From NCBI RefSeq assembly GCF_032854445.1, contig NC_088299.1, positions 13,013,608 through 13,077,607 on the forward strand: 64,000 nt of DNA, given 5' to 3'. The notes below the pieces were generated by a model. That model did no database searches. It worked only from the letters and a program-made list of their open reading frames with translations, and was not told the DNA's origin. Source of the DNA: Liolophura sinensis (lineage: Eukaryota; Mollusca; Polyplacophora; Chitonida; Chitonidae). Positions 17,183 to 59,285 of the stretch are shown here, piece by piece. The position numbers and the translations under genes were made by a program. How positions within the stretch are numbered: position 1 is the first letter of the stretch; each line of letters starts with the position of its first letter.

Positions 17183-19141
17183 ATGAACTTTGCGAGGTGT
17201 TTAGTGTTTTTGACACTGTTATTCACTGCCAAGTGGGCAGGGGATATTGCCATTGCGCATATGAACAGCACGTGAGTATAAGTTGCTTGTTTTAGTCAAA
17301 GGATTACTGATATACTTCTTTGTCAGGCACTTGTACATTTACGTTAAAATTCTATATATACAAGTACTAGAAAAACAGAAGCCATTTTTCGTATAGATAA
17401 ATTCAATTTATAGAAACACTCTAGAGCAAAGTATTCTCATGTCTATAAGCACTCTGGCGTAAAACTATTTAAGCTGTTTAATCTATCCACATCTACAGCA
17501 TCTTCATATCTGTACCCATTCATAAAGTAAATAAAATTCGACTGGGTCAAACTTTTCTACCAATTCTATCCCAAATTTAACTTATTTTGTGTTCAAAACC
17601 CATTGTTGTTTCTGTTTCTATCTTCCAGATGCGTTCACGCCTGTGCGTACCGTCCTAATAGGCTGACGGCTCTTCTAGTCCACCTCCGGCTTAGGTCACC
17701 GCCTGAATGGCCAATGGGGGCACGGCCATGGTGGGCAGGCTTATGTGGCGTCCACAACAAACAAGGTATGTCACAACATATGTCATACCCTGTCACATAA
17801 AAAATGACATACATTAATGATAGAATATTGTAAGCCAACTGCAATAAATTATTATGTAAACAATTTCTTGATATACTTTAGAATTATAAATTTTGTTTAA
17901 ATTAAGTTATTTTAGGTGGTTTTAAATGTATACATGTTTTAGTTTCATTTTAGATGTTCTCTTTATAACATGGAAAACAACTTACCGTCTCGTGGTTTAA
18001 AATTAGACAAAAAGCTGATCTAGAGTTACTATGTCATATATGCTCTGTACATGCCGGTATATTTACATTATAACAGGCGGTCATTTTCGGTTTGGATGTT
18101 GACGCTGAATTTAATGTTCACAAATATCTATGAACATCTCCATGCTTCCATTCCGCCATAAATTATAACAGGCGGTCATTTTCGGTTTGGATGTTGACGC
18201 TGAATTTGATGTTCACAAATATCTATGAACAACTCCATGCTTCCATTCCGCCATAAATTATAACAGGCGGTCATTTTCGGTTTGGATGTTGACGCTGAAT
18301 TTGATGTTCACAAATATCTATGAACAACTCCATGCTTCCATTCCGCCATAAATTATAACAGGCGGTCATTTTCGGTTTGGATGATACAGAATTTCTCCTT
18401 TTGTAAGTGGCACTCGATTAATCGTGTGAATTCTTGGCTGTTCTCACTAGCATTTGTGCCAAGAACAAATGAGTTATTTTTTTTGTTCCTTAGACTATCT
18501 GGACTTTGCTGTCGTGTTGGTCCTCCTCGTTGTGTACATACATGTCATCTATGAATTAGCCAAAAAAAAACGTGAGTATCACACCAGTACATTTAGTTTA
18601 CCTTACTTTTCTTTACTATACTCAACTGCAAAATACAGGCTGCTAGAGCTGAAAACAACGCAGAGAAATTCAAAGGCAAGAAAGTTAAACCTTGCAATTC
18701 GCAAATTCGAATCCAAGTTTTGGTGGCTTGAGTGAGGCTTCAATTTTGCAAGGTTTGTCAGGTACACCTGGTGAAGGCGGTGGTTTACTCCAGGTATGGC
18801 ATTTTCTTCCTCTTATAACACTAACAATGCGGATTCGTTGGCTCGTATGTTAAAGCGCTGATTCAATGGAACCAATGAGGTCGCTTTGTCAGGATGTTTG
18901 GTAGATACCTGACAAAGGTCGCTAGTTGACTTCGATGTCCTCCATCCGTGACTGCCGTCGTTTAAGTAACAAATTCTTGACCACGGCGTTAAACACCAAT
19001 CAATTAAATAAATAAATAAACCTGATTAACGTCGTAAAAGTGAAAAATGTTGAGTTAAGCGCCTATCAAACAACTAAATAAATGTTTCCTGAATATGTTA
19101 CAGCCCCACGACGTATCATCAGGAGATCCCGATGGATATAG
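17183..19141 (+). CDS. Predicted small single-pass membrane protein, four exons, about 113 aa
   Basis: Family not recognised. Exons 17183-17271, 17629-17765, 18494-18571 and 19104-19141 have AG/GT borders and compatible phases (2, 1, 1). Exon 1 from MNFARCLVFLTLLFT encodes a signal peptide. Exon 2 gives a short Cys/Trp/Arg-containing ectodomain (TCVHACAYRPNRL...). Exon 3 gives a hydrophobic helix (DYLDFAVVLVLLVVYIHVIY) followed by KKK. Exon 4 gives a basic tail PPRRIIRRSRWI and a stop. A longer start at 17093 is in frame, but it would bury the signal peptide. A run of nine A at 18562-18570 makes the exon 4 frame fragile: one base fewer would open exon 4 to a strong donor at 19167. The function is unknown. 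Confidence 0.5.
18071..18380. repeat. 95-base tandem repeat, about 3.3 copies
   Basis: Exact period of 95 bases, each unit starting 'taacaggcggtcattttcgg', with the copies nearly identical. It lies in intron 2 of the small membrane-protein gene. Confidence 0.95.
18945..19019 (+). repeat. SINE (family A) tail fragment
   Basis: Diverged 3' end: 'gactgccgtcgtttaagtaa' through 'aaacaccaatcaattaaata'. It lies in intron 3 of the small membrane-protein gene. Confidence 0.7.
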
Positions 19142-19314: not shown

Positions 19315-20065
19315 TCTGTGACCATCCGGAGAGTAAGAGCTCATCTGTCACATATACTGAATCTGGAGAGTAAGAGCTCATATCTGACATATATTGAGCC
19401 TGGAGAATAAGAGCTCATTTGCTAATGTTAAAACGTTTAATAGAGTAAGAGCTTATGTACTACACATGTTGAATCTGGAGAGTAAAATCTCATCTGTTAC
19501 ACATGTTGAATCAGGAGAGTAAGAGCTCATTTGCTACACCTGTTGAAACTTTTAACTGAGTAAGAGTTTATGTCCTACACAGGTTGAATCTGGAGAGTAA
19601 GATCTCATCTGTTACATATATTGAATCAAGAGAGTAGAAACTCATTTTCTACACATGTTGAAATAGAGTAAGAGCTTATTTATTACACATGTTGAATCTG
19701 GAAAGTAACAGCTCATCTGTTACACATGTTGAATCTAGACAGTAACAGCTCATCTGTTACACATGCTGAATGTTAGGGGTTAGATTTCAATTGTTGCACA
19801 TAATGAATTTGAAAAGTAAGAGCTCAATCTTTCACGTGCTAAATGTGGAGAGTAAGAGCTAATTTGTTACACATGTTGAATTTGGAGGGTAAGAGCTCAT
19901 TTGTTACCCATTTTGAAACTGTAGAGAAACAGTTCATCTCTTACAAAAGCTGAATCTGCATAGTAATAGCTCAATTATTTCACATGTTGAATTTGGAGAG
20001 AAAGTGCTTATCTGTAACACATACTGAGTCTGGAGAGTAAGAGCTCAATTGTTACACATGTTAAT
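19315..20065. repeat. 37-base minisatellite, about 20 imperfect units
   Basis: Unit consensus runs 'gaatctggagagtaagagct' then 'catctgttacacatgtt'. Variation among units is high, so it is an older array. It is just 3' of the small membrane-protein gene. Confidence 0.9.
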
Positions 20066-20680
20066 CTGAAGGTGAAGTGGTAAACATTCTAAATGTGTAA
20101 ATGTCAAGTCATGAGAAATTAATAGCAAGAAAGCTGTCACGAGTTCACGTCAAAAGTGCAACAAAAAGAACACAGCCCCAACAGTACCAACAACAACTTC
20201 ATTTTTCTATGTATGAACCTGCTCGTCGTACGTAAAACGTTTGCCAGCTATAAATTCAGTTAACTAACAAGTACATGATGAAAAGACTGCAGCATAGAGA
20301 GTAAAATCAGAGCAGCATTCAGAGAGAAAACATTGTGACAAGAGGGAAATGTTCAATTACCCCAGTTAGTTTTTTTTTATCCAAATTATTCATGAAATGC
20401 CTAAATAATGACAAATTACACGCCCCCCAAGCACTGTGGCTTCAGCAGAATGAGATAAAAACATAGTTCATAGTTCCTTCAGATCCAGCACGTTTATTTC
20501 AGTCTGTCTGTTGCTGTAATTACTGTGGCGGCAAATGTACTGTGATTCATTTATTAATTTGATTGGTGTTTAACGCTGTACTGTAGAATCTTTCACTTAT
20601 TTAATGGGTAAGGTTTAAGGATGGCGGTATAATAAAATTCCCTATGGCAAACCACTTTTGCCGAGTATCTGGTAAACGTA
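20066..20680. other. No gene seen
   Basis: AT-rich sequence with a short reverse SINE tail fragment near 20549-20590. No exon or family motif recognised. Confidence 0.5.
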
Positions 20681-23066: not shown

Positions 23067-25367
<2,301 letters not shown>

Positions 25368-29979: not shown

Positions 29980-31929
29980 ATGAAGTCTCTCATTCCTACT
30001 GCAGTCGTCCTCTCCTTGATATGTGTGGTTACCGTTTTTGGTAAGTTTTCATAAAAAATATGGCTTATTTGTTCGTTTGTTTGTTTGATTGTCTCCTTGT
30101 AGCAGACCGCGTCCAGTCTTAGCATACATATACACCTGGCTTCAACCATGCAAAAAACACAAACCAAGACTTACATACTTGTGACACCGGAGGGAAGCCC
30201 TTGACCTCACGTTCAGCGTTAAGTGGCAAAAGTCTTAATTGTCAGTCTTAATTAACACTGATGCAATCAGGCGTGTGCGTTGCTATTATTTATGCATTTA
30301 CACGAACAGTCAATGACGTTGTTTTCAAATTCATGATTATACCAACACAGCATTTTCAGTAATTCTAGACCAATACCGATATCTAACAAATTGCTGTCAT
30401 GTCTTATGGTGCTGTGTAATAGCTGAAACACAAAGCATGTTACTGTCAATGATAATTACGTACCAGAGGAAAGGATTTGTTGTCAAACCGATTAAATGAA
30501 AGATAGGCCGAATTCTAAAAGAGATGATAATTGGCTCACACTTCACATTTCGGTGTGGTATTGCTTGTCTCATTTTTGTGAAAGGCACTGCAACTAAGGC
30601 ACCAATGGGCCTCCGATTTGAATTTACTGTTTTGTTGATTTTTTTTGGTATGTTTCACTTATATTAAAGAAGGCGATGAGGTTTACAGGTATGGAAGACT
30701 GGAGTACCCGATATAAAACACCGCCCAATTAAAAACCTGATTTGGAGCCAAGGCTCCAGAGCTGTATTGAAAACCTTTAGCACAAATGAAGATTATGTGT
30801 GCAGAAGTTTACGTCGGCATAACTTCACATCCAAACAAAGTGCGAATCAAAGAACGGTGAAAACCGAGTTATTTTATTAAACCTTTCAATCCAAAGCCCA
30901 GCGGGATACTTAATTCTGTTTTGAAACCTTCTGGTGTAAGTCCTTGATAAGTCAGGGAAAGACAACCAATTATGGTTGTGTCGAACGTTTTTACGCATAA
31001 AACAAAGATGATGTTGATCGGCCATGATCAGCCTGCCTATGATCTTGACTTTATCATTAGCTGTGTGAGGTGCTCATTTTTACAAAACAAAAATGTCTTT
31101 ATGATATGAATGATAGGTCACTGATTTCATTTTAGGTCGCGGCTATGTGGACTACAGAGGGCATCGAGTCTCTGACTCTCAAGTCAGACAGAAGCTACAG
31201 CAAATAGCCAATTTGTACGGGAAGCGCGTCTGGTTGACGAGTGGCGACCGCAGAGGAACAGGAAGATCTCACGTGAGTTTATATAGGAGTTATTTCCCTT
31301 GGCAAATGTTGCGACTGTGGGCAAATCAAGGGTACTTGAGCGACATTTCTAACTATTTATGTATTAAATTTAACTTAAAATTTGTAATAAATATTTTCCC
31401 TGACTCTTCGCACAGAGCCATACCATAATACCACCTGAGACTTGCACTTTACAACGTATCAAAAATCATCCATAAGTAATGTTATCCATAAGTAATGCCT
31501 CTGTCAATCTGTATCAAAAATCAACCTGACACGACCACTATTTTTTAGCTATTTGTTGTTATAATTGGAGTAATATCATTTTGTCACCTTATCAACCTCC
31601 TCGGGAGGTGGGTAGTATCACTGGGCAAAGCGTTTTTAGTTCATCCGCCAGCGGTCCACGTTAAGCTGAGACATTTTTTTGTTTCTCAGCATTACAAGGG
31701 AAGGGCTGCTGATTTCTGGATAGACGGGGAAACATCCGGTGTAAACATCCTCAACCGAATCCGACGGAGCGGGATCATGCCGAGGAACTATCAAGTCATC
31801 TATCACGGGAGAAACACGTGCACACAAGGCTTTCACATGCATATTGGTCGCTATAACTACAGCCGTGCCACCTGTTGGGTGTTCGAAGGTACCAACAGCA
31901 GGAATAGATGTGTCTACAATTGTATGTGA
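29980..31929 (+). CDS. Secreted M15-type zinc peptidase, catalytic domain only, three exons, 145 aa
   Basis: Exons 29980-30040, 31136-31272 and 31690-31929 have consensus splice sites and phases 1 then 0. Exon 1 is a signal peptide (MKSLIPTAVVLSLICVVTVF). The catalytic domain carries WLTSGDRRG and then SHHYKGRAADFW, split across the exon 2/3 junction. That matches the S-x-H-x-x-G-x-A-A-D zinc-ligand motif of M15 D,D-peptidases. The third ligand lies in HMHIGRY. Known M15 enzymes cut D-Ala-D-Ala or peptidoglycan cross-links, so an antibacterial or digestive role is inferred. Four cysteines after the catalytic core (ending CVYNCM) suggest two disulfides in an extracellular protein. It shares exon lengths with the paralogue at 36081-45962 but lacks the cysteine-rich modules. 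Family assignment rests on motifs only. Confidence 0.82.
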
Positions 31930-33543
31930 GCGATAAAGCACTCAGTAAAATCAAATTACATCAAGATTTCTTTTGAAATGTATACCATGTCGTGAAACAG
32001 GCTTAACTGAAATTATTTCTGAAGTGTTTCCGGATATTAAAGCGGTGTATATTCCCCTGATTAAATATACATTCTCTTAATTTGAAAATCAGTATTCTGT
32101 ACGTCTAATTTCTATTATTTTGTTCTCGTGTCACATAAACATTAAACAGTTCACAGGTTTGACTGACTGGAGTCATATACTTATGCTTAGATTTTGGAGT
32201 AATACACTTTTGCTCCGATTTTGGGGTCATATACTTACGCACAGATTTTGGGGTCATACACTTACGCACAGATTTTGCTTTACTTTATACTGCAAACTAT
32301 ACAGTAAAGAAAACTATAAACACTACACATAAAATCATATCATATATATACATATACATTATACGTATATATGTATTACCATGTATTTGTTTTCTTGATT
32401 GAAGTTTAACTCCCTACTCTGCAATAATTTTTCACTTAGACGACGGCCCGGTATACATGCAGCAGGGTGTCTTACGAACTGCATTCACTCGTTGGTAATG
32501 TGTGATCGTAGCTTCTAGCTCTCTGCGTTTCACTTTGTGAGTTCAATTCATACTATGTAAATGTGGTATATGACAAATTTACTCCAAAAACTGCATGGAT
32601 AATTAGTGGTGCCTTAAAATGTTGTACTGGTTTTCACAGAAACTTTGTGATTGATGTGGTCTCCAGCATATTGTTCCCGGATTGTCACATATAAATTATC
32701 GTACCTTCCAGATAACGTCACCTCATTGAATTCATCTGCAGTTACAACAGTTTTAATATATCACCCGAATGTACCCCATTCTGCTTGGGTCGTCTACATG
32801 CAGGTTGGTGAAATGTATACAAGAATATGTCATGACTATAATGTTCTGAAGAAGATTCAAACTACACACAAAAATCAATGTGTCAGTTTTAACAGAGAAT
32901 CTGTTCTCTGAGTGATGCTAGAATGCATTCTGTTATTACAACATAATGTTCTGTCGTATTCAACATAATAACTGTGTTGGTGTAATGGAATCTTTAGGTT
33001 GAAATAATAGAATATGTGTGTTGTATTTAACAGAACAATCTGTTAAATCAGACAACAGTTTGAGTATTTGCTCCATAACACGATAAAGTATGCGTTCTGC
33101 CCGTCACACCCATAATATTCGACTGATCTCTTTTGTGGGAGAGCTGTGTGGCCTTGCTGGTTCCGATGGTTAAAGCGCTGGGTGGACGCAACGATCAGTC
33201 TCATAAATTCCACCAGTCGAATACCATTAATATTGGAATGGGTTCGGAGATTAGAAATTAAAGTGATGTTACAGCAAAATTCACCACAAAATAGTCCTAA
33301 TGGGATTTTGTTCTGTGAAATATTTAAGCATAGTAAGCATCATTTACTCGGAGAAATGACAGGATAATCAAACACTGACAAAGAGTCACCTGACTTGTTT
33401 TCAAACTAAGTACATGCCTATGAGTGCAGGTGACCCTGTTCCAGTTGGCTAAACTAGAACACGGAAATACTGCCCGTGCGAACTCTCAAGGAAATTACCT
33501 GGACTTATGCGAAATGAAAACACAAAGGCTCATTAAGAGATAA
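31930..33543. other. Intergenic; tandem repeat and decayed elements
   Basis: Holds a roughly 30-base tandem repeat at 32170-32277 (core 'acttacgcacagattttggg'). A diverged relative of the palindromic element at 40156-40451 lies at about 32880-33070. No gene supported. Confidence 0.5.
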
Positions 33544-34288
33544 TGTTACGACCCAAACTGCCTGTATTATAAAGAGATGGCTTGTTCGAAATACACGACA
33601 GTTTAGCCGCACAAAAAAGTAACCAAAACCAGCAGATTTTATTTTACAACAATTTATTAGCTTAACAAGAACAGATAATAAGACTTATACAAATACTAAA
33701 GTACTTAAATTTAACAAGAAAGGATAGCAGTATCTATACAAATACAAAAGTACTTACGGTGTCAAGTCCAAACGGACCACACATGCATAAATGCTCAGAG
33801 GCAAATTCACAAGAGGGAAAATCCACAGTATAACTGAGTGTATGACGAAATATACACAAAATTCCACAGACAGGGTCCGTGTACTAATAGGCACAGTGTA
33901 TACAAGAGCACAAATTAAACATACAAGTTCAGACTGAACAAGTGCTCGGTGGAGATAGGATATAACAAAGCCAGAGGCTATAGAGACACCAAAATTCAGC
34001 ACAAATGGCCTACTAAAGTAATACACAGCAAAAGCATCCAAGCTCTAAATAATTCTCCGTTCTCCGTTCTCTGTTCTCCCCGCTTGACCTGCTTTCATAG
34101 GTCTTATATAGCCTGGTGGAATTGTCTACAATAAGAAAATTCCTGAACACTTGATGTAAACAAACAGGCACCGAACTGCGTGCATTCTGGAACACTCTAA
34201 GGCAGAGGCAGACAGCAGGCGCCGAACTCAGCGTATGTAAACAATGGCAAGCTAAATTTAGAAACTGACGGCAGTCGTGCACATAACA
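33544..34288 (-). repeat. LTR of a Ty3/gypsy-type retrotransposon
   Basis: About 745 bases with short inverted ends TGTTA...TAACA. On the minus strand there is a TATA-like 'ctatataag' near 34110. A purine-rich tract (gaagggtgga) lies just upstream of the LTR at about 34290-34299. It is placed as the 3' LTR of the element whose RNase H follows at 34421. No second LTR found. Confidence 0.7.
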
Positions 34289-34420
34289 CATCCACCCTTC
34301 AAGAAAAAAAAAAGTTTTCCTAACTTTTTTTTTACTTACAATATATGTTAAACAATATATGTTAAACAATAATATATACAACATTGTAAAACCACATGTA
34401 ATTAAACATTTATACACAAC

Positions 34421-35010
34421 TTATACACGAGACAAGCAATCTGCAATAACATTATCTTTTCCCTTTACATGTTTGATTTCAAGATTGTATTCCTGCAACA
34501 ATAAACTCCACCGTAACAATCTCTGATTCTTTCCATTAACTCTCTGTAGAAACACAAGTGGATTGTGATCAGTATTTACAATCACAGGTTGTCTCGAAGC
34601 TGTTACATAAACTTCAAAATGTTGCAGAGCTAAAATAACAGACATTCTTTTTCAACAGTTGAATAATTCCTCTGAAACTTGTTAAGTTTACGGGAAGAGA
34701 AACAAACTGGATGATCAACACCAAGATTGTCCTCCTGAAGCAAAACAGCACCTACAGCAACATCGTGAAAATTGATACCAGTTCTTGATGGTACATCCGG
34801 AAATAAATGTGAAAACTCAAAAACAAGTTCAGACAGTTGCTGTTGCAGAATGGGTTCCAGATGTTGCAGTTTAGAATCAAGTTGTTTTAAGACATTTGAA
34901 TTCTGAAGCTTTGAAGAATTGAGCTTAGAATCAACCAACTGTTCGCCAATATCATCTGTATTACAGCAACTCTGGTCAATGTCAGCAATGAAAGTTAATT
35001 TACAAACACA
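34421..35010 (-). mobile_element. Decayed Ty3/gypsy-type pol fragment with RNase H
   Basis: On the minus strand, a pre-reverse-transcriptase segment (about 35010-34790, with LFPDVPSRTG) runs directly into RNase H sequence (VGAVLLQEDN, CFSSRKLN, NYSTVEKECL). A frameshift near 34640 leads to LALQHFEVYV, TDHNPLVFLQ, RLLRWSLLLQEY and VIADCLSRV, then a stop. Nearly all of the reverse transcriptase core is missing, so it is an internally deleted copy. No integrase follows RNase H before the LTR. Confidence 0.85.
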
Positions 35011-36019
35011 GAAGTGCTAATGGGAGAAGGGTTCAACTAATGGGCGCTGTTGTTTGCGTTTAAATCTAATTTGTTCACCTCCACAACAGAAGATCCTCTG
35101 GAGCGTAACTGACATACCCATCAACATTATTAACCTACATAGGCAGGCCAGGTCTACCACGATTGTTTGATCATGGCTCACAGGTTACCCATACCACCAC
35201 CCTACCCCACCACCCTCACCCTAGACATACTATTTAGAATCGTGTGAATAAATTAAACGCACTCCACCTATTTTCAAAGGTCGCATATTTATTTGTGAAT
35301 TAAAGCTGAGATGTACTTCAACGACAAAAAGGGTAAATGCACAATAACTGGGACATCCTCTGTGTAGGATTTCGTGTGGTCTTCCGCAACGGCCTGACGT
35401 GAAGCGCAAAGGCCCATGTAAAAGTATAGGCCCATGTTCAGAGATATGATGTCAAAAAAGACCTGGTCTCACTTGCACGTAGCCCTCTCAACCTTATGAG
35501 CTCGAAACTACCATGGCAACCAGTACTGTAGGCATTATGTCGCCGGCTTCGTACAAGTTGGCCCTGGAACGGTAAGGTGGGGAACGGGACATGCCGGCTT
35601 TCTTTTTTTTAACTGATTTATCCACTTTTGCAGTCAGAATTTTTCTTTCTTTTTTTTTACGCACCTCCAAAGAAACTTTCCCAGAAAAAGATCTCGGACC
35701 TCTAGATAATCGTCCAAATGGATTACAACTTGATTCTGGGTTTCGTCTAAATCGCGATACCTGCGGCCAAATGATTGGCTGGTTATCTCGGGGATCACAA
35801 TATTATGTCAGGACCTTAGAAAATCAGCCAATGATAATGTCACATACATGAATCTTTCAACAAAAGCGCGAGGCAAAACGTAATCCGATTGGTTCGGTGG
35901 ACAAAGTTGTTTTCGGCGAGTTTTTGTTTTTGTTATGTCGTATGAATGAAAATTATTAGATCGTGACTAACGATAAAGAGATCACAGAAAAAAATACTGT
36001 CTGTTGGGGAGGCTGCCAA
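35011..36019. other. No gene seen
   Basis: Upstream region of the second M15 peptidase gene. Open frames here have no recognised features. Confidence 0.45.
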
Positions 36020-36027
36020 TATATAAA
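36020..36027 (+). promoter_or_regulatory. TATA box of the second M15 peptidase gene
   Basis: TATATAAA, 61 bases upstream of the start codon, nearly the same spacing as in the first M15 gene. Confidence 0.6.
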
Positions 36028-36080
36028 TAAAGCTTGAGACCTCATTGCGAAAAAACGTCCAGCCATAGCCGCACGTGAAG

Positions 36081-38835
36081 ATGACAACTGTGCTCCGCGT
36101 AATCTTGCTGGTCACTTTAATGTGTGTGGCCAAGATTTTGGGTGAGTTGATGTTATTTAATGTAGTTGAATGTCTAGTGTTATCTGTGAGGCAAGTATCT
36201 GGGGTGAGCTAAGGTCAGCAGGGGATAAGTTAATTTATTTTTTTATACTTGTGTATATTGCTCGTTTGTGGTATCTTATGATTTTGTTGCTTGAGAATAA
36301 CAACGGTTTGGGCTTAGTTATAGTTGTTTATGCTACTTTTGTGTAGCAATCGCTTGGAGTAAGTTATTGTTTCCCTGTTATTTTGACGTTAAACAATGTT
36401 TTGTAGACTGCGACTAGGTTTGAGGTAAGCTGAGTTTGCCATGTTACCTGCCTGGCAAGTGTTTGGGGTATGTTAAGTTTGCTGATGTTACCTGCATGGC
36501 GAGTGTTTGGAGTAAGCTGAATTGGCTATGTTACCTGCGTGGCGAGTGTTTGGAGAAAGCTGTTTGCTTATGTTATCTGCGTGGCGAGTGTTTGAGGTAA
36601 GCTGAGTTTGCCATGTTACCTGCGTGTTGAGTGCTTGGGCAAACTGAGTTTACTGATGTTATCTGCACGGCTAGTGTTTGAATAAGCTGAATTTGCTATG
36701 TTACCTGCATGGTGAGTGTTTGGGGTAAGCTGAGTTTGCTGATGTTATCTGCATGACGAATGTTTGGGGTAAGCTGAGTTTGCTGATGTTACCTGTGTGG
36801 CGAATGTTTGGGGTAAGCTGAGTTTGCTGATGTTACTTGTGTGGCGAGTGTTTGGGGTAAGCTGAGTTTGCTGATGTTATCTGCATGGCGAGTGTTTGGG
36901 GTAAACTGAGTTTGCTGATGTTATCTGCGTGACGAGTGTTTGGGGTAAGCTGAGTTTGCTGATGTTATCTGCGTGACGTGTGTTTGGGGTAAGCTGAGTT
37001 TGCTGATGTTACCTGTGTGGCGAGTGTTTCGGGTAAGCTGAGTTTGCTGATGTTATCTGCATGGCTAGTGTTTGGGGTGAGCTGAGTTTGCTGATGTTAT
37101 CTGCATGACGAGTGTTTGGGGTAAGCTGAGTTTGGTGATGTTACCTGTGTGGCGAGTGTTTGGGGTAAGCTGAGTTTGCTGATGTTACCTGCGTGACGGG
37201 TGTTTGGGGTAAGCTGAGTTTGCTGATGTTATCTGCATGACGGGTGTTTGAGGTAAGCTGAATTTGCTTATGTTACCAGCATGGTGAGTGCTTGAGTAAG
37301 CTGAGTTTGCTATGTTACCTGTATGGCGAGTGTTTGGGGTAAACTGAGCTTTATGTTGCCTGTTTTATCATAAGGCTCAAGTTTTAGGTTAATTGTAAAT
37401 CAATTTATTTACGCTGCTGTTCCTTTCTGATGTGTTGGCAGATTTAGAAGTCATATGGTTAAACATAATGATTTCTATCTACGTTTAAAACACTGTTAAA
37501 ATCTTTTTACAGGTGATCAAAAATGCACAGCCAAAAGAGGGAAATGTCAGGAAGACAGTATAAACTGCCCAGGAGGATATCAATCCAACTTGTGCGATGG
37601 CGCAGCGGACAGGCGATGCTGTCTTCCTAAAGCTGGTGAGTAGGGGTTTCCCGCATAAACCAAAGATTAAACATTCTAGTCATTTAAACAATTAAACCTG
37701 TTCATAAAAAATGTCTTATAAACATTGTCATGCAGTCTATAGTTAGAAATTCTTTGCATATCAATTATTTAATCCCCGCGGAGCTGGTCGTTATCTCTTG
37801 GAGATATGCTAATGTATAATGCGTAAATGAGTTGATTTTTTGTATATATCTATGAAGAATGGCCTTCGTTCTGAAACAAAATCAAGTTTTCTTACCTTCA
37901 TTTTTAAATTCAAATTACAACTGATTCGATACTTATTTAATCTTCATCGAATTAAATAAAGATAATAGACAGATTTAGATATACAATTTACCTGAAAAAT
38001 GCCCATATACCCATGTTGGCTGTAGGTCCCTAATCTTCAGTGAATGTCCATAAATCACAGGTGATGGTGACAAGAAATGTACAAATAAGGGAGGAAAATG
38101 TCAGAAAGACAGCCTAAACTGTGCGGGAGGGTATCAGTCCAACCTGTGCTCCGGTGCTGCCAACATACGATGTTGTCTTCCTAAGGCTGGTCGGTATTTT
38201 CCTTTATATATAGTGCTTTTGTCATTTTTTTAAAATCCATTTGGTTAATTTATTTGGAGTTCCCAATGAGATATTTACCAAATTTAACAAATGAAAATAA
38301 ATTTGGAATTCCAGACTATGTTCCTGATTCAGATAAAAGACTACAATACATCGAAATCGTTTGCGATGGAGATGTTATTTTCATTTTACATTTAGGGTAA
38401 AATGTTTCAAAAATTAACTGTAACAAAATTTGTGAGTGCTTACTAGAATTGACCAGTCCTTTATGTACAAAAACAAATATATAGATTATACCGAGTAGGA
38501 AACCCAGTGGCTTTGGAAAGACGGGATACACACAAAGGTCCAAAATGCAGATAAAAACGTACCGGTTTTTTGATGTAGTGTGCAATACAGTGCTTATGTA
38601 TACTTCCTAACTGTTTAATAAGTCCACACACTCCACAAAGCGTGACCTGTGAAAGAAAAAACAAATGGGTACATAGCTTTGGGCCACTGTGTGAAAAGCG
38701 TAAAGGAGATCCGCATGAGTAAGATTACCTTATATTTAATTCATTAATGTCCAAGCCGTATGCTTTAAAAACACTATGGAATGGTATTTCACAACGGGAA
38801 ATGGCAGATAAGAAATGTAAAGTTAAGGGAGGAAA

Positions 38836-38908
<73 letters not shown>

Positions 38909-41900
38909 CGCTTTTGTGGGTAACATGAAAGACCAAAATGCATTTAATCATTTTTTTCCTGTTTCCGTTTTATATTTTGGGGAAAATGTCTGAACAATTA
39001 CTTGCTATAAAATATGTGGGAAGTTATTAGAACTACACTGTCGAATATGTAAAAGATCGACTACATACTTGACTGAGATACCCATATACAGTGCTATAGT
39101 TATTTTAGACTGACACTTTCTGTGTACAGAACACATGTCAAACTGGCCACTCCAAGTCTTGAACTAAAGACTTCAAAGTCAGTCTCCTTAAAACCAGCAG
39201 TACATTTCAACCATCTAGATCATACGGCGTTTGCCTGATTTAGAGGTCGTTGGTTGGAAACCATGAGTGGTCTCTGCTAAATTTAAGAGTTACAATTTTT
39301 AATGGTAAATCCCGAATATCGATAGTACTGTCACTAAACGTGCATGTACATTCCAAATAACATCCATCAATATGGTAGATACATTTGACATATGGAACCC
39401 GGCTAATGCAGATTATTTTCCAGCCGTTAAAACCTTGCGTTTTTCTTCGTAAACACTGTATGGTGATGTTACAGGAGATGCAGATAAAAAATGTAAAGAT
39501 AAGGGCGGAAAATGTCAGAAAGATATCTTAAACTGTGCGGGAAAGTATCAGTCCAACTTGTGTTCCGGTGCTTCCGACAGACGATGTTGTCTTCCTAAAG
39601 CCGGTGGGTATATCTCCATTACATATATACAGTGCGTTGTTAATTTTTGTAATTTATTTAACTGGAAATATTTAACATACTGCAATTTGCCGTACAAGGT
39701 TGTAAATAAAACACTTGTCTTTAGATCATTATAGAAATAATAGCTTCATTCAGTGTGCATGCGCTATAATAACTGCAGTATTTGAAAAGTGTCCATCGTT
39801 TTTGGACGAGGCCAACGAACAGCCACCATGCTTTTACATCTTTTATCATACAGACACTGTTTTGCTTTTTTACATATTTTTTTTTAATTTAATTTTTTTT
39901 TCCATTTTCTAAACCCATGTGAAAAACCCAGGGTAACAGTTCTATAATTTTTGGAAGCAATTCGGAAGAAATTTAAAAATGACCTAGTGAAAATATACAT
40001 AAGCCTACCTGTACTATTCTATTTGTATATGTAGGGCCTCACATAAAAACAATGCACACTTCCTTTTTTACTCCAATTATTACAGCGTGTACGCAGTGAA
40101 GCCGTTATTCCTTTTTTTAAGATCTGTAAGTCTCAATGGCTGATGTCATATTTTCTACACAGGAAAACTTAATCTGCTGATTTCAACAGAAAGTCTGCTG
40201 TCTGAGTGATGCTAGAATGTATTATGTTATTATCAGATAATATTCTGTCATACTGAACCTAATATTTTGTCAGTCTAGTAAAATAATGTTAGTCTAGTGT
40301 TTATAATCTTTATGTTGAATTAACTGAATATGTGTTTTATATTATATTATTATATATAACAGAACAATGTGAGACAAAAGCAAAATACATTCTATCATCA
40401 CTCAGGCAACAGAATTTCTGTTGAAATCAGCAGATTAATTTTTTGAGTGTACATTTTGTAGAAAATAATAAACCTAATGTCTCACTTATTGTTGTTGCAC
40501 GCCTCAAAAACTAATCTCGCGTTATGCCATCACTGCTATCGTGCCCGGTCTTACAGACGTTGCATAGAGTTTATAACATTGTTTAATGTTATTTCGTTAC
40601 AGGAGATGGAGATGAAAAATGTAAAGATAAGGGTGGAAAATGTCAGATAGATAGCTTAAACTGTGCGGGAAAGTATCAGTCCAACTTGTGCTCTGGTAAT
40701 GCCAAGAGACGATGTTGTCTTCCTAAAACCGGTCAGTAAAATTTGCTTTCAGTTGTTTTTTGTTAAATTAATGAAAATTCAGATGTTTAACTTGTCAGTT
40801 TTCCCTTTAAGGCTTTACATTAAAATCATCAACTTATTTTAGTTTAATAGCCGCATATGGGCAGAAATATCAAAATATTAATTCACATGGAAGGCCACCG
40901 TACTTTCAAATTGTTCCCTTGGTCCGTGTGACAATCGTTAATTTCTTTTTTTTTTTAATTTTTTTCATTTTGCAGGGGTTTTTTTTAGTCCATATATTCA
41001 AACCTTGCGTATGTTTCATAAACACTATATGCAGTATAATTAAGACGTACAGTACAGAGAGAAGAATCATAGCAGCGACCAACTTGTGATAACTGCGAAA
41101 TACGAAATGATTAAGTAACCGATGAAATACAGCCCCCAGTTTCATTTAATTTACCTCCATTGGGGTTTTATTTTAACTGTGCACTTAAATGCTTAAACTG
41201 TAGCAAATTACACCCCCCTCCTCCGTTCTGGTTTTACAGAACGAATGTTTCAAAGATGAAATTGATTCCTTCACTGCATAAATTTCCCATGCCGTCCTTT
41301 AAATCTTACGTTTGTTTCGTAACCATTATTAAATGCTATTTCATTACAGGAGACAGAGATAAAAGATGCATAGACAAAGGAGGAAAATGTCAGAAAGACA
41401 GCATTAAATGTCCAGGAGGATATCAGTCCAATCTATGTTCTGGTGCTTCCAACAGACGATGTTGTCTTCCCAAAGGCGGTGAGAATATATGCTACACTTT
41501 ATGGCATAAAGGACTTGCCATCACAACAACCAAAAACGTCGTGCTATGTCACTGGTTCGAATCCAGGTTTGACAATTAGCGTAAAATTTAGGTAACTTTC
41601 AGGTTGAATTTACCAAAACATTTATACGCCGTCTAACAGATGAAGTAAGTGTATTAAATTAACAATCACGTTGACGAAATAGTAAGTAACCATCTGATGT
41701 TAAATACCCCCAATATCTTCGGTCACTTGAGGTCTGTGGTTAATAGAAATTTTCCTTATATGCCCAAGCAGATGAAATACCTTAGATAACACCTAGATTG
41801 CAAAATTTATTGATCTGAGCTTATTACATTATTTGTTTCGCAGAAAGAATAAACATGGAGAAAAAATAGATGGTACGAAGAGTATTATTTCCAGCTACTG

Positions 41901-44900
41901 TGTATGGCCCAGAATTACGAAGCTGTATTAGACTAAAGCCAGGCTTAGTTTTATCGTCAAAATGCTATGTTTACTTGAGGAATTTTCAATTTGTTCAGGC
42001 TTTCATTACAAAATTTTTAATTAGCCTTCACGTTTAAAACTGTAAGCTCTGAAATAATACTGCAAGCTGGATGCAAACTCGAAAAATCCAAATAACACAA
42101 CTGAACACTAAGTCAGACGTAAGGCAGTTTCATGATTATGGGACATGGCGCTGAAGGGAAGAAAAAATTCACTGCATTTATGTTTTAGATGACAAGAAGT
42201 GTAAAGAGCTGGAGGGAGTATGTCAGAAGGACAACATTAAATGTGCGGGTGCATATCGCTCCACGTTGTGCTCTGGTGATGCGGACAGACGTTGTTGTCT
42301 TCCTAGTGCTGGTACGTAGCACAGTGTAAAGATATTCTATAAGTGCCGAACTAATAGATTTGCATAATTGACTGGGTATGGAAATGTATTGTAAAAAGTA
42401 CAATGGTTTTCAAACATAAAAAAGGGTTCTTTTCTGTAAGTATTTAGGCCATGTTTTCACGTATGATTTCTTAGTTTAGTTGTACCGTGTAAATAATAAA
42501 GTCTAAGAAACGCTTTCAAATCTCGTTGTTTGCCTGGTAATGTAAGCCTGGGCCAACCTTGTTGAGGAGATCTAACTTTTCCCATGTCCTTTAATGACTT
42601 TAAATGGAAACGAAGCATGGAATGAAATTGTGCTTATAGGTGCATCAATGAAAATTGGATCTATAACAATATCAAAAGCACCGCATTCAAATGTTGACAT
42701 CCAATTAAGGTGCATTCATAGCTTCCAGACCCAATACGACAGATTTAAGGCATTTGCTCACATACATATTAATCCTACCTTGCATTTCAAGTATCTAAAA
42801 GCGTTTAATTATTTTATTCGCAGTCAAGAAAGTTTTCCTAATTACAGATTATCCGGTTTTCTCTCACTTGACCTCCAGATTACGTGATTTTATAATTCAG
42901 TTGCGATTTGTTGTGAGATGACGATAATATCCCCATACTCAACAAAAACAAAGAATGCCTGCAGATGGTGATTAGATGCCTGGGAGGATGAAGACGACGT
43001 TTTCGTATATAGCATGAATGCATGGATGACAATGGTTTCACACTACCTGTGCAATATTACAGTCATATCATAGTGATACTTACCATGCAGTGATTACCTT
43101 AGGCATCTGGTTCCACGAAACCATTTCTGACATAAGCGGAAATTTGAAATACGATCTTAAAGCTTGTTTTTGGGCTTTGAAAATTGAAAGTTTGACCGTC
43201 TCTCCCACTGTTACCCCTCCACTCATCAATGACATTTTTAGACCAAGCGTGTCTAAATTTCTACTCCCAGTATCATAAAGAATATCGTAAAGAGTTTTCC
43301 AATTTTGGACTAAAGTCAGAAATAGCTTTGAGGAATCGGCCCCGGAGGATATATCAATATTAATAAACCGGGGTTTCTAAAGCAGCATTATTGGTTTATT
43401 TTCAGACCTAAAATGTATTAACCAGGGAGGTAAATGCCAGCTTACTAGCAAAAGCTGTACGGGGTCGTACAGATCCAATCTCTGCGGGGGAAAATCCAAC
43501 CGGAAATGCTGTCTAGAGGTAAAAAAAGGTAACAATTTCATTTTTGTCTCGATTACTGAATTGTACATGGGATTAATCGTGGGTTTGAGCAGGTCATAAA
43601 TCATGATCGTCTTATGTCCATTACTGGACTGTAAATGGGATTAATCGCGGATTTGAGGAAGTCGCAGCCCTTCTTGTTACCATCACTGGTGTACCATTAA
43701 CGATACACGTGATTCATCATGAATATATCGAGGTAACAAAATCCCAGCATCCTCTTTATTATAATAAAGCAAGGGTTTTTTTTTGAACTGGTGAAATCGG
43801 TCCAGCTAGCAACATTACCATTTAAGATTTAAGATTTAATCAACTACTCAAACTTAAACGTGGGTTTAAATTTCATCACACTTTTGAACCATCGGACCTT
43901 TTTATAATGAACACGTTTGAGTATGTGTTCTTAACGTATGATTTTGTGATTAAGGATCCGGAACAGTGGCTTACCGTGGATTCACGGTTTCTGACAGAAT
44001 CGTACGAAATAAGCTTAAGGAGATAGCCGATCTGTTCGGGCGTCGACTGTGGCTAACCAGTGGGGATCGCGATGGAACTGGTCGCTCTCATGTGAGTCTG
44101 CGTGTAGTTATCTCCCTTGGCATGATGACCGTCAACTGATCTAAACAACCTTTTTACACACATTCTTTAATTTGTCTACCTCTGAACAGGATTCACACGC
44201 GTCAAATGGCTCAACAAAGCCTAAGTTTCCCCTCCACAACCAAAATCTATAACCAGATGTTGGGCCTTGCTGGTTTTTAGAGCATAAGCCGTGGTCGATC
44301 AACGCAAAGAAAACGTTTATTTGTTTCGCACTAATAAAAAGAATGTGGCAAAATGGGCAAATGGGGAAAAAATCCAATGAGCATGGTGCCATAATTTTAC
44401 TCCTACTGTGATGAAAAGAACAGTTGAATACTTTTGAAGAATTTACTTCTGGAAGATCCGGTAGAGACTTGTGATACTTTTGCCGCTTGAGGCCTCTAAA
44501 CAGCATGGGACTACATAAACCTTTATCCTTTGGATGTTTTCATCATTCCTTTAAAACATCGCCCAGAAGCTCTTGTGGCTGGACCCAAACCAGTCAGTTT
44601 CGTCCTTGCCTGCTGATCACAATATCACCGTTTTGGTTGTGAAGGAGAGAAATTTGACATTTGCAAAGGCTGAGTGTTGAGTGACGCGATTTCGCCTACT
44701 GAGAGTACTGTACCATTCGCATCGTTATCCAAATCGACATCTTCTCTTTCGAAATCAAAATTGCCAGAATCACATTCATCATAGTATTCTGTCGTCTAAT
44801 CTTCTTCGCTCGTTTTGGGGCCTCCGTGGCTCAGTCGGTTAGCGCGCTAGTGCAGCGTAATGACCCAGGAGTCTCTCACCTATGCGGTCGCTGTGAGTTC

Positions 44901-45962
44901 AACTCCAGCTCATGCTGGCTTCCTCTCCGGCCGTACGTGGGAAGGTCTTCCAGCAACACGCAGATGGTCGTGGTTTACCCCCGGGCTCTGCCCGGTTTCC
45001 TCCTGCCATAATGCTGGCCGCCATCGTATAAGTGAAATATTCTTGAGTACGGCGTAAAACACCAATCAAATAAATAAATAAATAAATAAATAAATCTTCG
45101 CTTGTTTCATTTGATTAGCAACTCATCATGACCTTTCATGATTGAAATAAATCAGCTGGTTAGTGACTATGATGACGTAGTATCGCTGCCAAGCACAGAA
45201 ATATATGACAGCTCCGACGTTTAATAACTGTGCGATAGTCAATGACTGATAATATTAACAGAAAATGACATTGATTTTTTTTCGACGTTGGAAGGCTCTG
45301 TATTAAAGGTTTTAAAGATTTTATTTTATTGTCCACAAAAAAAACGCAAAGAGAGACAACTCCAGGTTGGCCTGACCTGGTTAGCAGCAGTTTTCCTTAG
45401 TTCCACATGTACGTCTCAAAAATGCTCTTTATGGTTATAAATTCATTATATGACGACCTTCCTGGGGTATTGATCTCCAAATATCTACCCGTGTATCCCC
45501 GGAAGATCGTCATATAACTAATATTATATGGCATGACATAGTTGATTTGCTGTTATATGTTATCAGCTTTATTTACCACCTGTATTTGTATATAATCTCA
45601 AATATATTCCTTTGGGAACTGGTGAAAATGAATCTTTGGAAGGACGTTCATGGTTTACAAGTGCATAGTATATGCATGGATATCGCACTTGACCTTTTTA
45701 CAGCTGTCTGGTTAATTTCCAGCACAATGTGGGCCGGGCGGCTGACTTTTGGGTGGACGGAGGGCTGACGGGAGGTCAAATGTTCAACCGGATCCGGAAC
45801 AGTGGGATACTGGATCAAGATTTCCAAGTGATTTGGCACGGAAGAGGCACGTGCACGGGAGGAGAACACATCCATATTGGTCGCTACGGAGATGGCCGAG
45901 AAACGTGCTGGGTTCACGAAGGGACACGCGCTAGCAACAAATGCGTTTATACCTGTATGTAG
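36081..45962 (+). CDS. Secreted M15-type zinc peptidase with seven N-terminal six-cysteine modules, ten exons, 440 aa
   Basis: Exons: 36081-36141 (signal peptide MTTVLRVILLVTLMCVAKIL), 37513-37635, 38061-38189, 39475-39603, 40603-40731, 41350-41478, 42189-42311, 43406-43528 (one module each), 43955-44091 and 45723-45962 (catalytic domain). Module borders are all phase 1, and the sum is exactly 441 codons with the stop. Each module has C-x6-C-x6-C-x8-C-x7-C-C with a core like GGYQSNLC and ends RRCCLPK. Similar small cysteine modules precede cell-wall hydrolases in fungi and some animals (from memory). The catalytic part has WLTSGDRDG, SHHNVGRAADFW and HIHIGRY, with the H, D, H zinc ligands of M15 D,D-peptidases intact, and ends CVYTCM. 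A secreted peptidoglycan-binding and cleaving role is inferred. The exon 3 donor (gtcggt) is weak. Confidence 0.85.
36405..37345. repeat. 44-base minisatellite, about 21 units, in intron 1 of the second M15 gene
   Basis: Unit 'gctgagtttgctgatgtta' then 'cctgcgtggcgagtgtttgg' and 'ggtaa'. Most units contain GGTAAGC, a fair 5' splice-site match. The sequence just after the true exon 1 donor resembles a unit, so the array may have grown from the intron start. Confidence 0.95.
38796..38838 (+). pseudogene. Broken cysteine-module exon
   Basis: Encodes the first third of a module (ADKKCKVKGGK), closely similar to the start of exons 38061 and 39475. The acceptor reads 'acaac' instead of 'acag'. The rest of the module is replaced by the AT microsatellite that follows. 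It would have been a further module between the second and third. Confidence 0.75.
38839..38907. repeat. (AT)n microsatellite
   Basis: About 34 AT units inserted directly after the broken cysteine-module exon. The flank beyond it ('gcgcttttgt') resembles the sequence after exon 3 ('agtgcttttgtcat'). Confidence 0.95.
40156..40451. mobile_element. Palindromic MITE with TA ends
   Basis: Long terminal inverted repeats: 'ttaatctgctgatttcaaca' with 'tgctgtctgagtgatgctag' on the left mirror 'tgttgaaatcagcagattaa' on the right. TACAC...GTGTA ends suggest a TA target duplication as in mariner-type elements. No transposase. It lies in an intron of the second M15 gene. Confidence 0.75.
44817..45095 (+). 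repeat. tRNA-derived SINE (family A), full length
   Basis: Best-preserved copy in the window: head 'ggggcctccgtggctcag', A-box, B-box 'gagttcaactccagc', body, and a tail with a clean AAAT run. It lies in the last intron of the second M15 gene. Confidence 0.93.
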
Positions 45963-46037: not shown

Positions 46038-48469
46038 AATATGTACATCAATTCAAATAACTGAACAACAACACCGTAGCTCCAAGTGGTCTGTAGCTAT
46101 TATAATCTATAGCACGGAGTATGTTGTGAATGACCTGTGAAAACAGTAACCTGTATTAAGTAAATAGATTACATTCTAAAATTCACCCATCGTGTCACAC
46201 ATGCAAATTTGACAATGTATATTGCTCATGAAGTTTGGTTTCGTTATTTTTGTCAGTCTTTATCTGATATGATTGATTTACTCGGTTGTTTTTTAACGCA
46301 GAGGTAAAAAAAAAAAACAATTTTGCTTTAGGGACAGCGGTAAGATTCATGGATGGATGAAAGCGGAACGCACAGAGTAAAACCAATCACCTTTGGCATG
46401 AAACCGATGAATTTTTCCTTCATTATAGCAAAACCGTTCTGAGCAGATCCAAAAACTGTGTTGTATACAGTGTGGCAGATGCTGGGCAGGTTGATATTGG
46501 CATGCATATATGCCTTGCTGGCGAAGTGCTGCCCCCATTGAAGTAACATGTCTAAGACACAAGACATGACACCCCACCCAAGCACATTATACTGACACTG
46601 GGCCAACCAACCATGTTTCCTTGCTGTACCTCTCAGTGCTGAGCGCCAAGCGAAAGGCCCGGGTGGAGTCCTTGGTGTGACTCGACCCAGGCCTAATGTC
46701 ATGAGATTTGTACCCGATGATCACCCCCACCGATCCCACTCAACCAATCTTCTAACTGCGTGTGTCCGAACGATAGTTAGACAAGCACCTTAACCGCGTG
46801 ATACGAATAATTGCACCGTGTGAGCCTATTCTGGAGAAATCATACGCGATTTTTCTACAATGTTTGTTACCTCTCCGATTTCCTTTTTTATCGCGAACGT
46901 ATGGGTTCACGTAAGACGCTTGACACAGTTATTAATGAGTACAACCCCATTGCTTGCAACAGGGTATGTTCCCCCATTAAAGATTGTAAGGGAAAAAATT
47001 CGTTTGAGTTTAAGATTAAAAACATAACTCTAATGACGCAGTCAGTCTAACTTCTTTGGGACCAATGTCGTAATTTGAAAGCTACTTAAAAGCTCAGCTT
47101 TTGGTAGTTTGGTCCATTTGGCTCACCTCTCGATACTGACGAGAGGCCTTTCATGTCGCTTGCTAAAATCCACCTCCCACTGTTGCTTTAAGGAAGAAAC
47201 TAGGTGATGGTTTCCACTGAGGTGATTCCTTCACGAATATGACTGAGTGCTAGCGTGAAACATTCTTCACAACACCAATGCAAGAATGAAAACAATGCAA
47301 GTACAAAAAAATGGAGCAGTGTTTCAGATTTTGTACATGTTAAAAGCAATATAATTGGACAGGCTAAAATGGGCGCCATAAACCCAGATAAACCGTGGTT
47401 ATTTTATTAATGGAGCTTTACAAACTAAATATGTAAGTACTCAAATACAAGCATTTGACGAATAGAATTAAGACGTACAGCACAGCATAATGTCATAAGC
47501 AGAGTAAAGTAAAAATAACACAATGCAATGGTGTTAATTGCAATTTGTGGGACGTCACTGGTACAGAATTAATCACAATACTGTGTTACCGTCACATTCT
47601 TATCGTACAATAACATTAAAACAAGATTGATCAACTTCTAAACGGTATTCACTTATTTTTAACAGGTGTAAGGTGTCGGTTGTCATAACGGAGATTTTCA
47701 AAAGTATAATTCTACGTGTTTTTCACTGTAGTCTACGCACGCGATATCTATGTCTGTGTGCTCGGGGTTTTATGTCGTACTTTATGACAAGGCGGAAGCA
47801 TTAGCTGTGTGTACATCTACTTATCTTCTTCTGGCAGGGCGAGTCCATGCCGCCAAACGTATTGCCGTCACTGAAGTATCATGCAGAAGATACCCGACGT
47901 GACACCCAGTTACATTATACTGACACCGGGTCAACCAGCTCTGTTTCCTTGCTCTAACATTTAGTGCTGAGTTTCATGCACCATTTTTTAAGAATCTTTG
48001 GTTTCATCCCGGGTCTCCCGACTTCAAGGCGGACGCTCTAACCATTAGGACAAATGACATGTGTAACACAGTTACACAGTTAAAGGTTGAGGTGATAGGT
48101 TTTTTTTTAACTTTCTGTGCATGTGTAGTTAGACTGCGATATATACGTCTCCATGTGTATACACGCTCTGTTTGAACACACTTGATCCTTGATAAGGCAT
48201 TGACACCTAACAAAACCAGGCTAACAGTGACACGTTAAGGTCCCCTCCCCTAACCGAGAGCCCGTGTTGTTTATCGGTTGCTCGTCGTCTAAAAGATAAC
48301 TCACATGGATTTGACAGACAAGTGCTGCAGGACACCGATACACAGGCATCTTGTGATCTTGTTTCGGACAAGAGTCAACAAAGCGAGGCTGAAAAGTACG
48401 AACTGTTTTACACAGCTGGCCTAAAGTCAGACGAGCTATTCAAGAACAAGAGGAGACGAAACAACTAGA
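46038..48469. other. Intergenic, with repeat remnants
   Basis: Diverged repeats at about 46490-46700 and 47750-48070 share 'ttacattatactgacac(c/t)ggg' and 'gtttccttgct', so they are copies of one old interspersed family related to family B. No gene supported. Confidence 0.5.

Positions 48470-59285
<10,816 letters not shown>

Follow-up and report, generated by a model that had tools for sequence, protein, structure and literature searches.

Introduction

The closest described relatives of the genes reported here are rusticalin and the rusticalin-like proteins. Rusticalin is a blood-cell protein with two cysteine-rich repeats (CRRs) spaced Cx6Cx6-7Cx8Cx7CC, followed by a peptidase domain that resembles the one of phage A500 (PMC6339383). 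In that report, the combination of CRRs with an M15 peptidase domain occurs in tunicates, amphioxus/cephalochordates, coral and Trichoplax, the hosts being Styela, Ciona, Botryllus, Diplosoma, Oikopleura, Branchiostoma, Asymmetron, Alveopora and Trichoplax, and the zinc ligands are conserved in the homologues; its host list is without any mollusc. No report of CRRs with an M15 domain in a mollusc was found in the literature searched. Here, we describe two tandem genes of the polyplacophoran mollusc Liolophura sinensis (NCBI RefSeq assembly GCF_032854445.1) in a stretch of 64,000 nucleotides, the window (contig NC_088299.1, positions 13,013,608 to 13,077,607). Both genes probably encode secreted M15-type zinc peptidases cutting peptidoglycan peptides, and a chain of seven CRRs in the second gene would hold the enzyme on the bacterial wall and stabilise it.

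The CRR itself is more widespread. A survey found it in 382 proteins, of which 301 are from fungi and 69 from metazoans; 124 carry a known domain, including phage lysozyme in 26, Amidase_2 in 17 (Mollusca included) and M15 (PF13539) in six, and CRR with M15 is known in fungi and Trichoplax (PMC7379824). In PLys, a Trichoplax g-type lysozyme with CRRs, the CRR part is reported to shift the melting range upwards from 25-35 to 50-60 C at a cost in activity, and to be removed during maturation; the enzyme is secreted for external digestion (PMC12855814). For bivalves, another study reports co-opted phage lysozymes (PMC5303276).

Gene models and comparison with rusticalin-like proteins

With predicted splicing, gene 1 lies within 29980-31929 and gene 2 within 36081-45962 of the window, both on the forward strand and about 4 kb apart (Table 1). 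All 11 introns of the two models run from GT to AG and keep the frame, and the coordinates of the tandem, intron-containing pair given in a preliminary description of this DNA proved right. The end of the exon encoding module 7 was set at 43528 because splicing at the 43518/43519 donor would not keep the phase. Gene 1 encodes 145 amino acids in three exons: after an N-terminus that looks like a signal peptide by eye, there is a single 125-residue M15-type domain. The product of gene 2 (440 amino acids, ten exons) has a similar signal-like start, again judged by eye, then seven cysteine modules and an M15-type domain 63% identical to that of gene 1.

Gene 2 thus fits the rusticalin-like layout of a signal-peptide-like start, CRRs and, at the C-terminus, a Hedgehog/DD-peptidase (M15/MD clan) domain that keeps its zinc ligands, and the catalytic part contains introns in the rusticalin-like proteins as well as in both genes of this locus. 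The number of CRRs differs, being two in rusticalin-like proteins, seven in gene 2 and zero in gene 1. Compared by description only, the catalytic domains differ too: that of rusticalin resembles the L-Ala-D-Glu peptidase of phage A500 (2VO9), whereas the domain studied here meets only PF08291. While the CRR and M15 design is itself known, the mollusc host, the seven CRRs in place of two, the M15_3-type domain and the CRR-free tandem partner are new. A mollusc thereby joins the hosts of the design, and its CRR array, which lies beside a CRR-free sister gene, is the longest found in this analysis or met in the literature searched. In CRR proteins at large, as in gene 2, the repeats lie N-terminal to an enzyme attacking the bacterial wall, the enzymes being different.

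Between the two genes, retroelement-like frames with a reverse transcriptase/RNase H look by eye lie on the minus strand (34421-35016). Intron 1 of gene 2 holds a 44-bp minisatellite of about 21 copies (36418-37348).

Family of the catalytic domain

The family assignment is carried by a comparison of profiles. Searching phages with the mollusc domain by tblastn gave four records with E-values of 0.01 to 0.6, and two phage proteins from these records, L033 and L034, pass PF08291 (Peptidase_M15_3; Pfam gathering cutoff 23.2 bits) at 69.9 and 72 bits. A phage profile was built from both proteins and their relatives, giving 12 M15_3 sequences, some of them partial, of which L033 and L034 alone were scanned against PF08291. 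Five mollusc domains aligned with this profile by hhalign at 96.3% and an E-value of 1.8e-9 over 59 columns, while the best of 50 column shuffles reached a probability of 1.64% and the reversed profile 0.16%. The domain is therefore firmly placed, on sequence grounds, as a homolog of M15_3 proteins that pass the Pfam cutoff, with Pfam's own membership rule narrowly missed. This bears out the preliminary description of secreted animal proteins related to M15, in which the signal peptides are again a reading by eye. Of the profile check it had proposed, the hhalign match and the match of gene 1 to PF08291 (E-value 1.9e-4) stand, whereas none of the Pfam matches reaches the cutoff and gene 2 remains at 0.13. 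In PHROGs, gene 1 matched an endolysin family with an E-value of 0.0049, and gene 2 did so at 0.092. The Pfam scans of the domain proteins gave no match to PF13539, although sub-threshold families can escape such scans.

The name D,D-peptidase, used in the preliminary description, should be dropped until the product has been measured. This label is not secured because L-Ala-D-Glu endopeptidases belong to M15 as well and phage endolysins make up most of the profile used.

A bacterial or phage origin of the domain is plausible, and such an origin has been published for rusticalin (PMC6339383). Relatives of the domain were absent from viral contigs searched with exon 3 and with the five-domain alignment, and from bacterial and archaeal genomes searched with the latter; a plasmid search returned one record only, with an E-value of 1. 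Outside its own genome, the domain had no close relative in these collections, which are without any other animal. L033 as a query found three bacterial relatives, which were not used in the analysis. The phage M15_3 profile matched 1LBU, a solved zinc muramoyl-pentapeptide carboxypeptidase, in the PDB with an E-value of 2.3e-8, and hedgehog chains at 0.13 or worse.

Active-site residues

The H, D, H zinc-ligand motifs noted in the preliminary description were recovered in both spliced proteins: S-H-H-Y-K-G-R-A-A-D and H-M-H-I-G in gene 1, S-H-H-N-V-G-R-A-A-D and H-I-H-I-G in gene 2. Together with the arginine of TSG-x-R, this pattern is unchanged in all five aligned paralogue domains. In a joint MAFFT alignment, the mollusc TSG-x-R, S-x-H-x-x-G-x-A-x-D and H-I-H-I-G fall on TSG-x-R, S-x-H-x-x-G-x-A-x-D and x-V-H-I-D of the phage proteins, which include endolysins of Escherichia phage K1-5 and Proteus phage Pm5460 and peptidases of Microviridae; the final H-I is common to both groups. 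Counted along the alignment with 1LBU, the motif Arg, His and Asp pair with R138, H154 and D161 of 1LBU, which we take to be its catalytic arginine and two of its zinc ligands. The mollusc domains differ from the phage M15_3 proteins in a shorter loop before S-x-H, four cysteines, which are conserved across the mollusc domains, a C-terminal extension, and a histidine two positions before the last ligand, where most of the 12 phage proteins have F or W.

Several results weigh against the assignment and the function proposed here. Gene 1 scored 22.0-22.1 bits against PF08291 (E-values 1.7e-4 to 1.9e-4), narrowly below the cutoff, and gene 2 only 12.9 bits; four of the five paralogue domains matched this family at an E-value of at most 1, and among the matches listed none was above the cutoff. 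The NCBIfam scan gave no family match, only a chance match to L28, and the five-domain mollusc profile matched no PDB chain. Profile searches of the own genome with PF01427, PF13539 and PF08291 returned zero matches; these negatives carry little weight because the PF08291 search missed even the genes of the window. The last histidine ligand lies beyond the local hhalign core, its pairing coming from MAFFT and forced global alignments, and TSG-x-R and S-x-H are separated by five residues in the mollusc domains compared to 14 in L033, about nine fewer. A model of exon 3 alone was poor, with a predicted local distance difference test (pLDDT) score of 54.3 and a strand-helix-strand-strand order; none of its 235 Foldseek matches was significant, and the best 50 of the 235 included no M15 protein. 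On the side of the repeats, the fold matches of the modelled CRR were each insignificant, with E-values of 1.5 to 7.5 and a luciferase on top. The exon 3 model was dropped as a picture of the zinc site, being poor and matching mostly antibody chains.

The shortened loop and the H-x-H form of the last ligand, which also occurs in the hedgehog chains matched weakly by the phage profile, would fit a fold that still binds zinc but has no enzymatic activity and serves in binding or signalling, like that of Hedgehog. Such a loss of activity is improbable in our view, since TSG-x-R, S-x-H-x-x-G-x-A-A-D and H-x-H have all stayed unchanged among the paralogues.

Paralogues and selection

Six genes with this domain were found in the genome: the two at the locus, a further two on contig C2, and one each on C3 and C8. 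The two C2 copies (L014 and L015) are identical over 125 codons and lie about 30 kb apart; either they were duplicated recently or the second copy is an artefact of the assembly. They differ in length from the other copies and were hence compared only with each other. Across the six length-matched, differing pairs, divergence was 0.19-0.33 at codon positions 1 and 2 and 0.59-0.65 at position 3, and judged by this contrast the domain is under purifying selection. A pseudogene reading was rejected, given the intact splice sites and the codon-position divergence of a selected gene.

The C3 gene has two CRRs before the domain, and the upstream stretches examined for C2 and C8 held no credible CRR; upstream of the C8 gene, the first catalytic exon occurs a second time in broken form (L016:8710-8822). 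One animal thus offers the same enzyme with zero, two and seven CRRs, a natural comparison for the role of the repeat.

Cysteine-rich repeats of gene 2

A pattern search found the spacing C-x6-C-x6-C-x8-C-x7-CC in all seven modules of gene 2, so that both the count and the spacing in the preliminary description were right, as was the catalytic domain standing alone in gene 1. By this spacing, the modules are the CRR of rusticalin. All seven CRR exons are symmetric (phase 1-1), and the divergence among the modules is 0.24, 0.21 and 0.42 at codon positions 1, 2 and 3. A further module, broken at 38804-38836, runs into a (TA)34 repeat (38804-38907); therefore, the array has both gained and lost copies.

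An AlphaFold2 model of module 2, with the other six modules as alignment, reached a pLDDT of 86.8 and shows one helix followed by three strands. The modelled CRR looks beta-defensin-like, in agreement with the HHpred result of the rusticalin authors: nine of its 14 Foldseek matches, each insignificant as said above, were beta-defensins, the sea anemone SCRiP or a tick carboxypeptidase inhibitor (2jto). The CRR alignment found no relative in viral contigs and none in the PDB. With the tick inhibitor among these matches, the CRR chain might be imagined to inhibit or regulate a peptidase, which is also one proposal of the rusticalin authors (PMC6339383). We hold this to be very improbable, since a CRR in the same genome precedes a PGRP amidase and no peptidase of that kind.

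Cysteine-rich repeats elsewhere in the genome

The genome contains 18 CRR matches, seven in gene 2, five on C10, two each on C3 and C11, and one each on C6 and C7. The C6 repeat (L028, L030, minus strand) is the one preceding the PGRP, whose Amidase_2 match has an E-value of 2.9e-19 and 70.1 bits. On C10, five CRR genes are clustered at 27.04-27.15 Mb (L020-L027). Their last exons look T4-type-lysozyme-like by eye and match PHROG 7 (endolysin) with E-values of 0.0019-0.0023; there was no Pfam match, and the PDB gave only ribosomal chance matches. The C10 partner is thus tentatively lysozyme-like. For the domains beside the CRRs of C7 and C11, no known family was recognised. An M15-like nature of the C7 partner, suspected by eye, was rejected: hhalign gave 0.50% against the phage M15_3 profile, where 50 shuffles reach 1.9%, and 4.17% against the mollusc domains.

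Ten further module frames were surveyed for phase, leaving out the fifth C10 copy. A candidate phase-1 acceptor was present in nine of ten and a candidate phase-1 donor in eight of ten; candidates in other phases also occur beside some of these frames, the C7 module is off the pattern, and the second C11 module is without a phase-1 donor. Since the CRR exons are of phase 1-1 and one of them precedes a PGRP amidase, the data suggest that the CRR has spread by exon shuffling. It has been proposed in print that phage attachment sites joined CRRs with hydrolases, and symmetric exons are a plain alternative to this. The rusticalin-like gene of Ciona has tRNA or phage attP-like sequence in its CRR introns, which its authors took as a sign of horizontal gene transfer, whereas ARAGORN (bacterial code, standard setting) found no tRNA gene anywhere in the 64 kb of the window.

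Proposed function

The gene models, the M15_3 homology, the conserved ligands, the signs of selection, the CRR spacing and the CRR beside a PGRP amidase are what the analysis shows, and the following steps are put forward conditionally. As homology would have it, the enzyme is secreted, and its M15 domain, nearest to M15_3 (PF08291), would cut the peptide part of the wall. In between, as a guess, the basic, beta-defensin-like CRR chain of gene 2 may meet the bacterial envelope through many weak contacts, and by analogy with PLys it may also make the enzyme sturdier; gene 1 would be the bare enzyme without CRRs. Exon duplication would most likely have enlarged the array from about two CRRs, and the repeats would travel from one hydrolase to another as symmetric exons of phase 1-1.

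The main rival reading takes the CRR chain mainly as a pro-region that stabilises the enzyme, is cleaved away at maturation and does not bind bacteria. It follows what is reported for the CRR part of PLys, with its thermal gain, its cost in activity and its loss in maturation (PMC12855814). Seven copies seem beyond the needs of stability, gene 1 has no CRR at all, and the seven-module region carries a net charge of +29 (isoelectric point 9.07); all of this is indirect, and we regard the pro-region as rather unlikely.

A more specific form of the proposed wall attachment, which we advance tentatively and consider doubtful as a whole, is a self-targeting bacteriolysin. In this form, the seven modules of gene 2 would be a polycationic arm that grips or damages the envelope and holds the M15 domain on it, and the CRR exon would be a 1-1 phase tag shuffled among hydrolases (M15, PGRP amidase and perhaps a lysozyme-like enzyme) by exon shuffling and not through a phage attachment site.

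Many molluscs graze bacterial films, which counts for a digestive enzyme acting on eaten bacteria instead of an immune effector. The external digestion reported for PLys points the same way (PMC12855814), whereas rusticalin belongs to the blood cells (PMC6339383). The digestive use is quite possible, but an immune use appears somewhat better placed.

Features of the locus and other observations

Table 1. Exons of the two genes and the repeat remnant, in positions of the window
Feature	Position	Strand	Basis or remark
Gene 1 exon 1: start and signal-peptide-like segment	29980..30040	+	splice model; signal by eye
Gene 1 exon 2: N-terminal half of M15 domain including TSGDR	31136..31272	+	splice model, genome paralogue search
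Gene 1 exon 3: C-terminal half, H67, D74, H115-x-H117, stop	31690..31929	+	splice model, hhalign/MAFFT
Gene 2 exon 1: start and signal-peptide-like segment	36081..36141	+	splice model; signal by eye
Gene 2 CRR module 1, phase 1-1 exon	37513..37635	+	splice model, Cys pattern
Gene 2 CRR module 2, phase 1-1 exon; used for structure model	38061..38189	+	splice model, Cys pattern
Remnant of extra CRR exon, outside gene model	38804..38836	+	cut by (TA)n run, no intact acceptor
Gene 2 CRR module 3, phase 1-1 exon	39475..39603	+	splice model, Cys pattern
Gene 2 CRR module 4, phase 1-1 exon	40603..40731	+	splice model, Cys pattern
Gene 2 CRR module 5, phase 1-1 exon	41350..41478	+	splice model, Cys pattern
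Gene 2 CRR module 6, phase 1-1 exon	42189..42311	+	splice model, Cys pattern
Gene 2 CRR module 7, phase 1-1 exon	43406..43528	+	splice model, Cys pattern
Gene 2 exon 9: N-terminal half of M15 domain	43955..44091	+	splice model, genome paralogue search
Gene 2 exon 10: C-terminal half, H362, D369, H410-x-H412, stop	45723..45962	+	splice model, hhalign/MAFFT

Elsewhere in the window, a 540-residue open frame on the forward strand (48425-50047) has a signal-peptide-like start, internal repeats around 'VNLTGV.TSN' and no Pfam match. The minus strand carries pieces of a beta-tubulin-like gene (23067-24616), of which the piece at 23070-23885 matches Tubulin_C at 6.9e-45, and a GNAT acetyltransferase-like frame at 3143-3835 (FR47, 5.9e-15). 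Tandem repeats were found at 18067-18383 (95-bp unit, 99% identity) and at 19324-20068 (37-bp array, 20 copies). Outside the window, one contig of the genome contains eight tandem matches to the haemocyanin beta-sandwich family, which we take to be molluscan.

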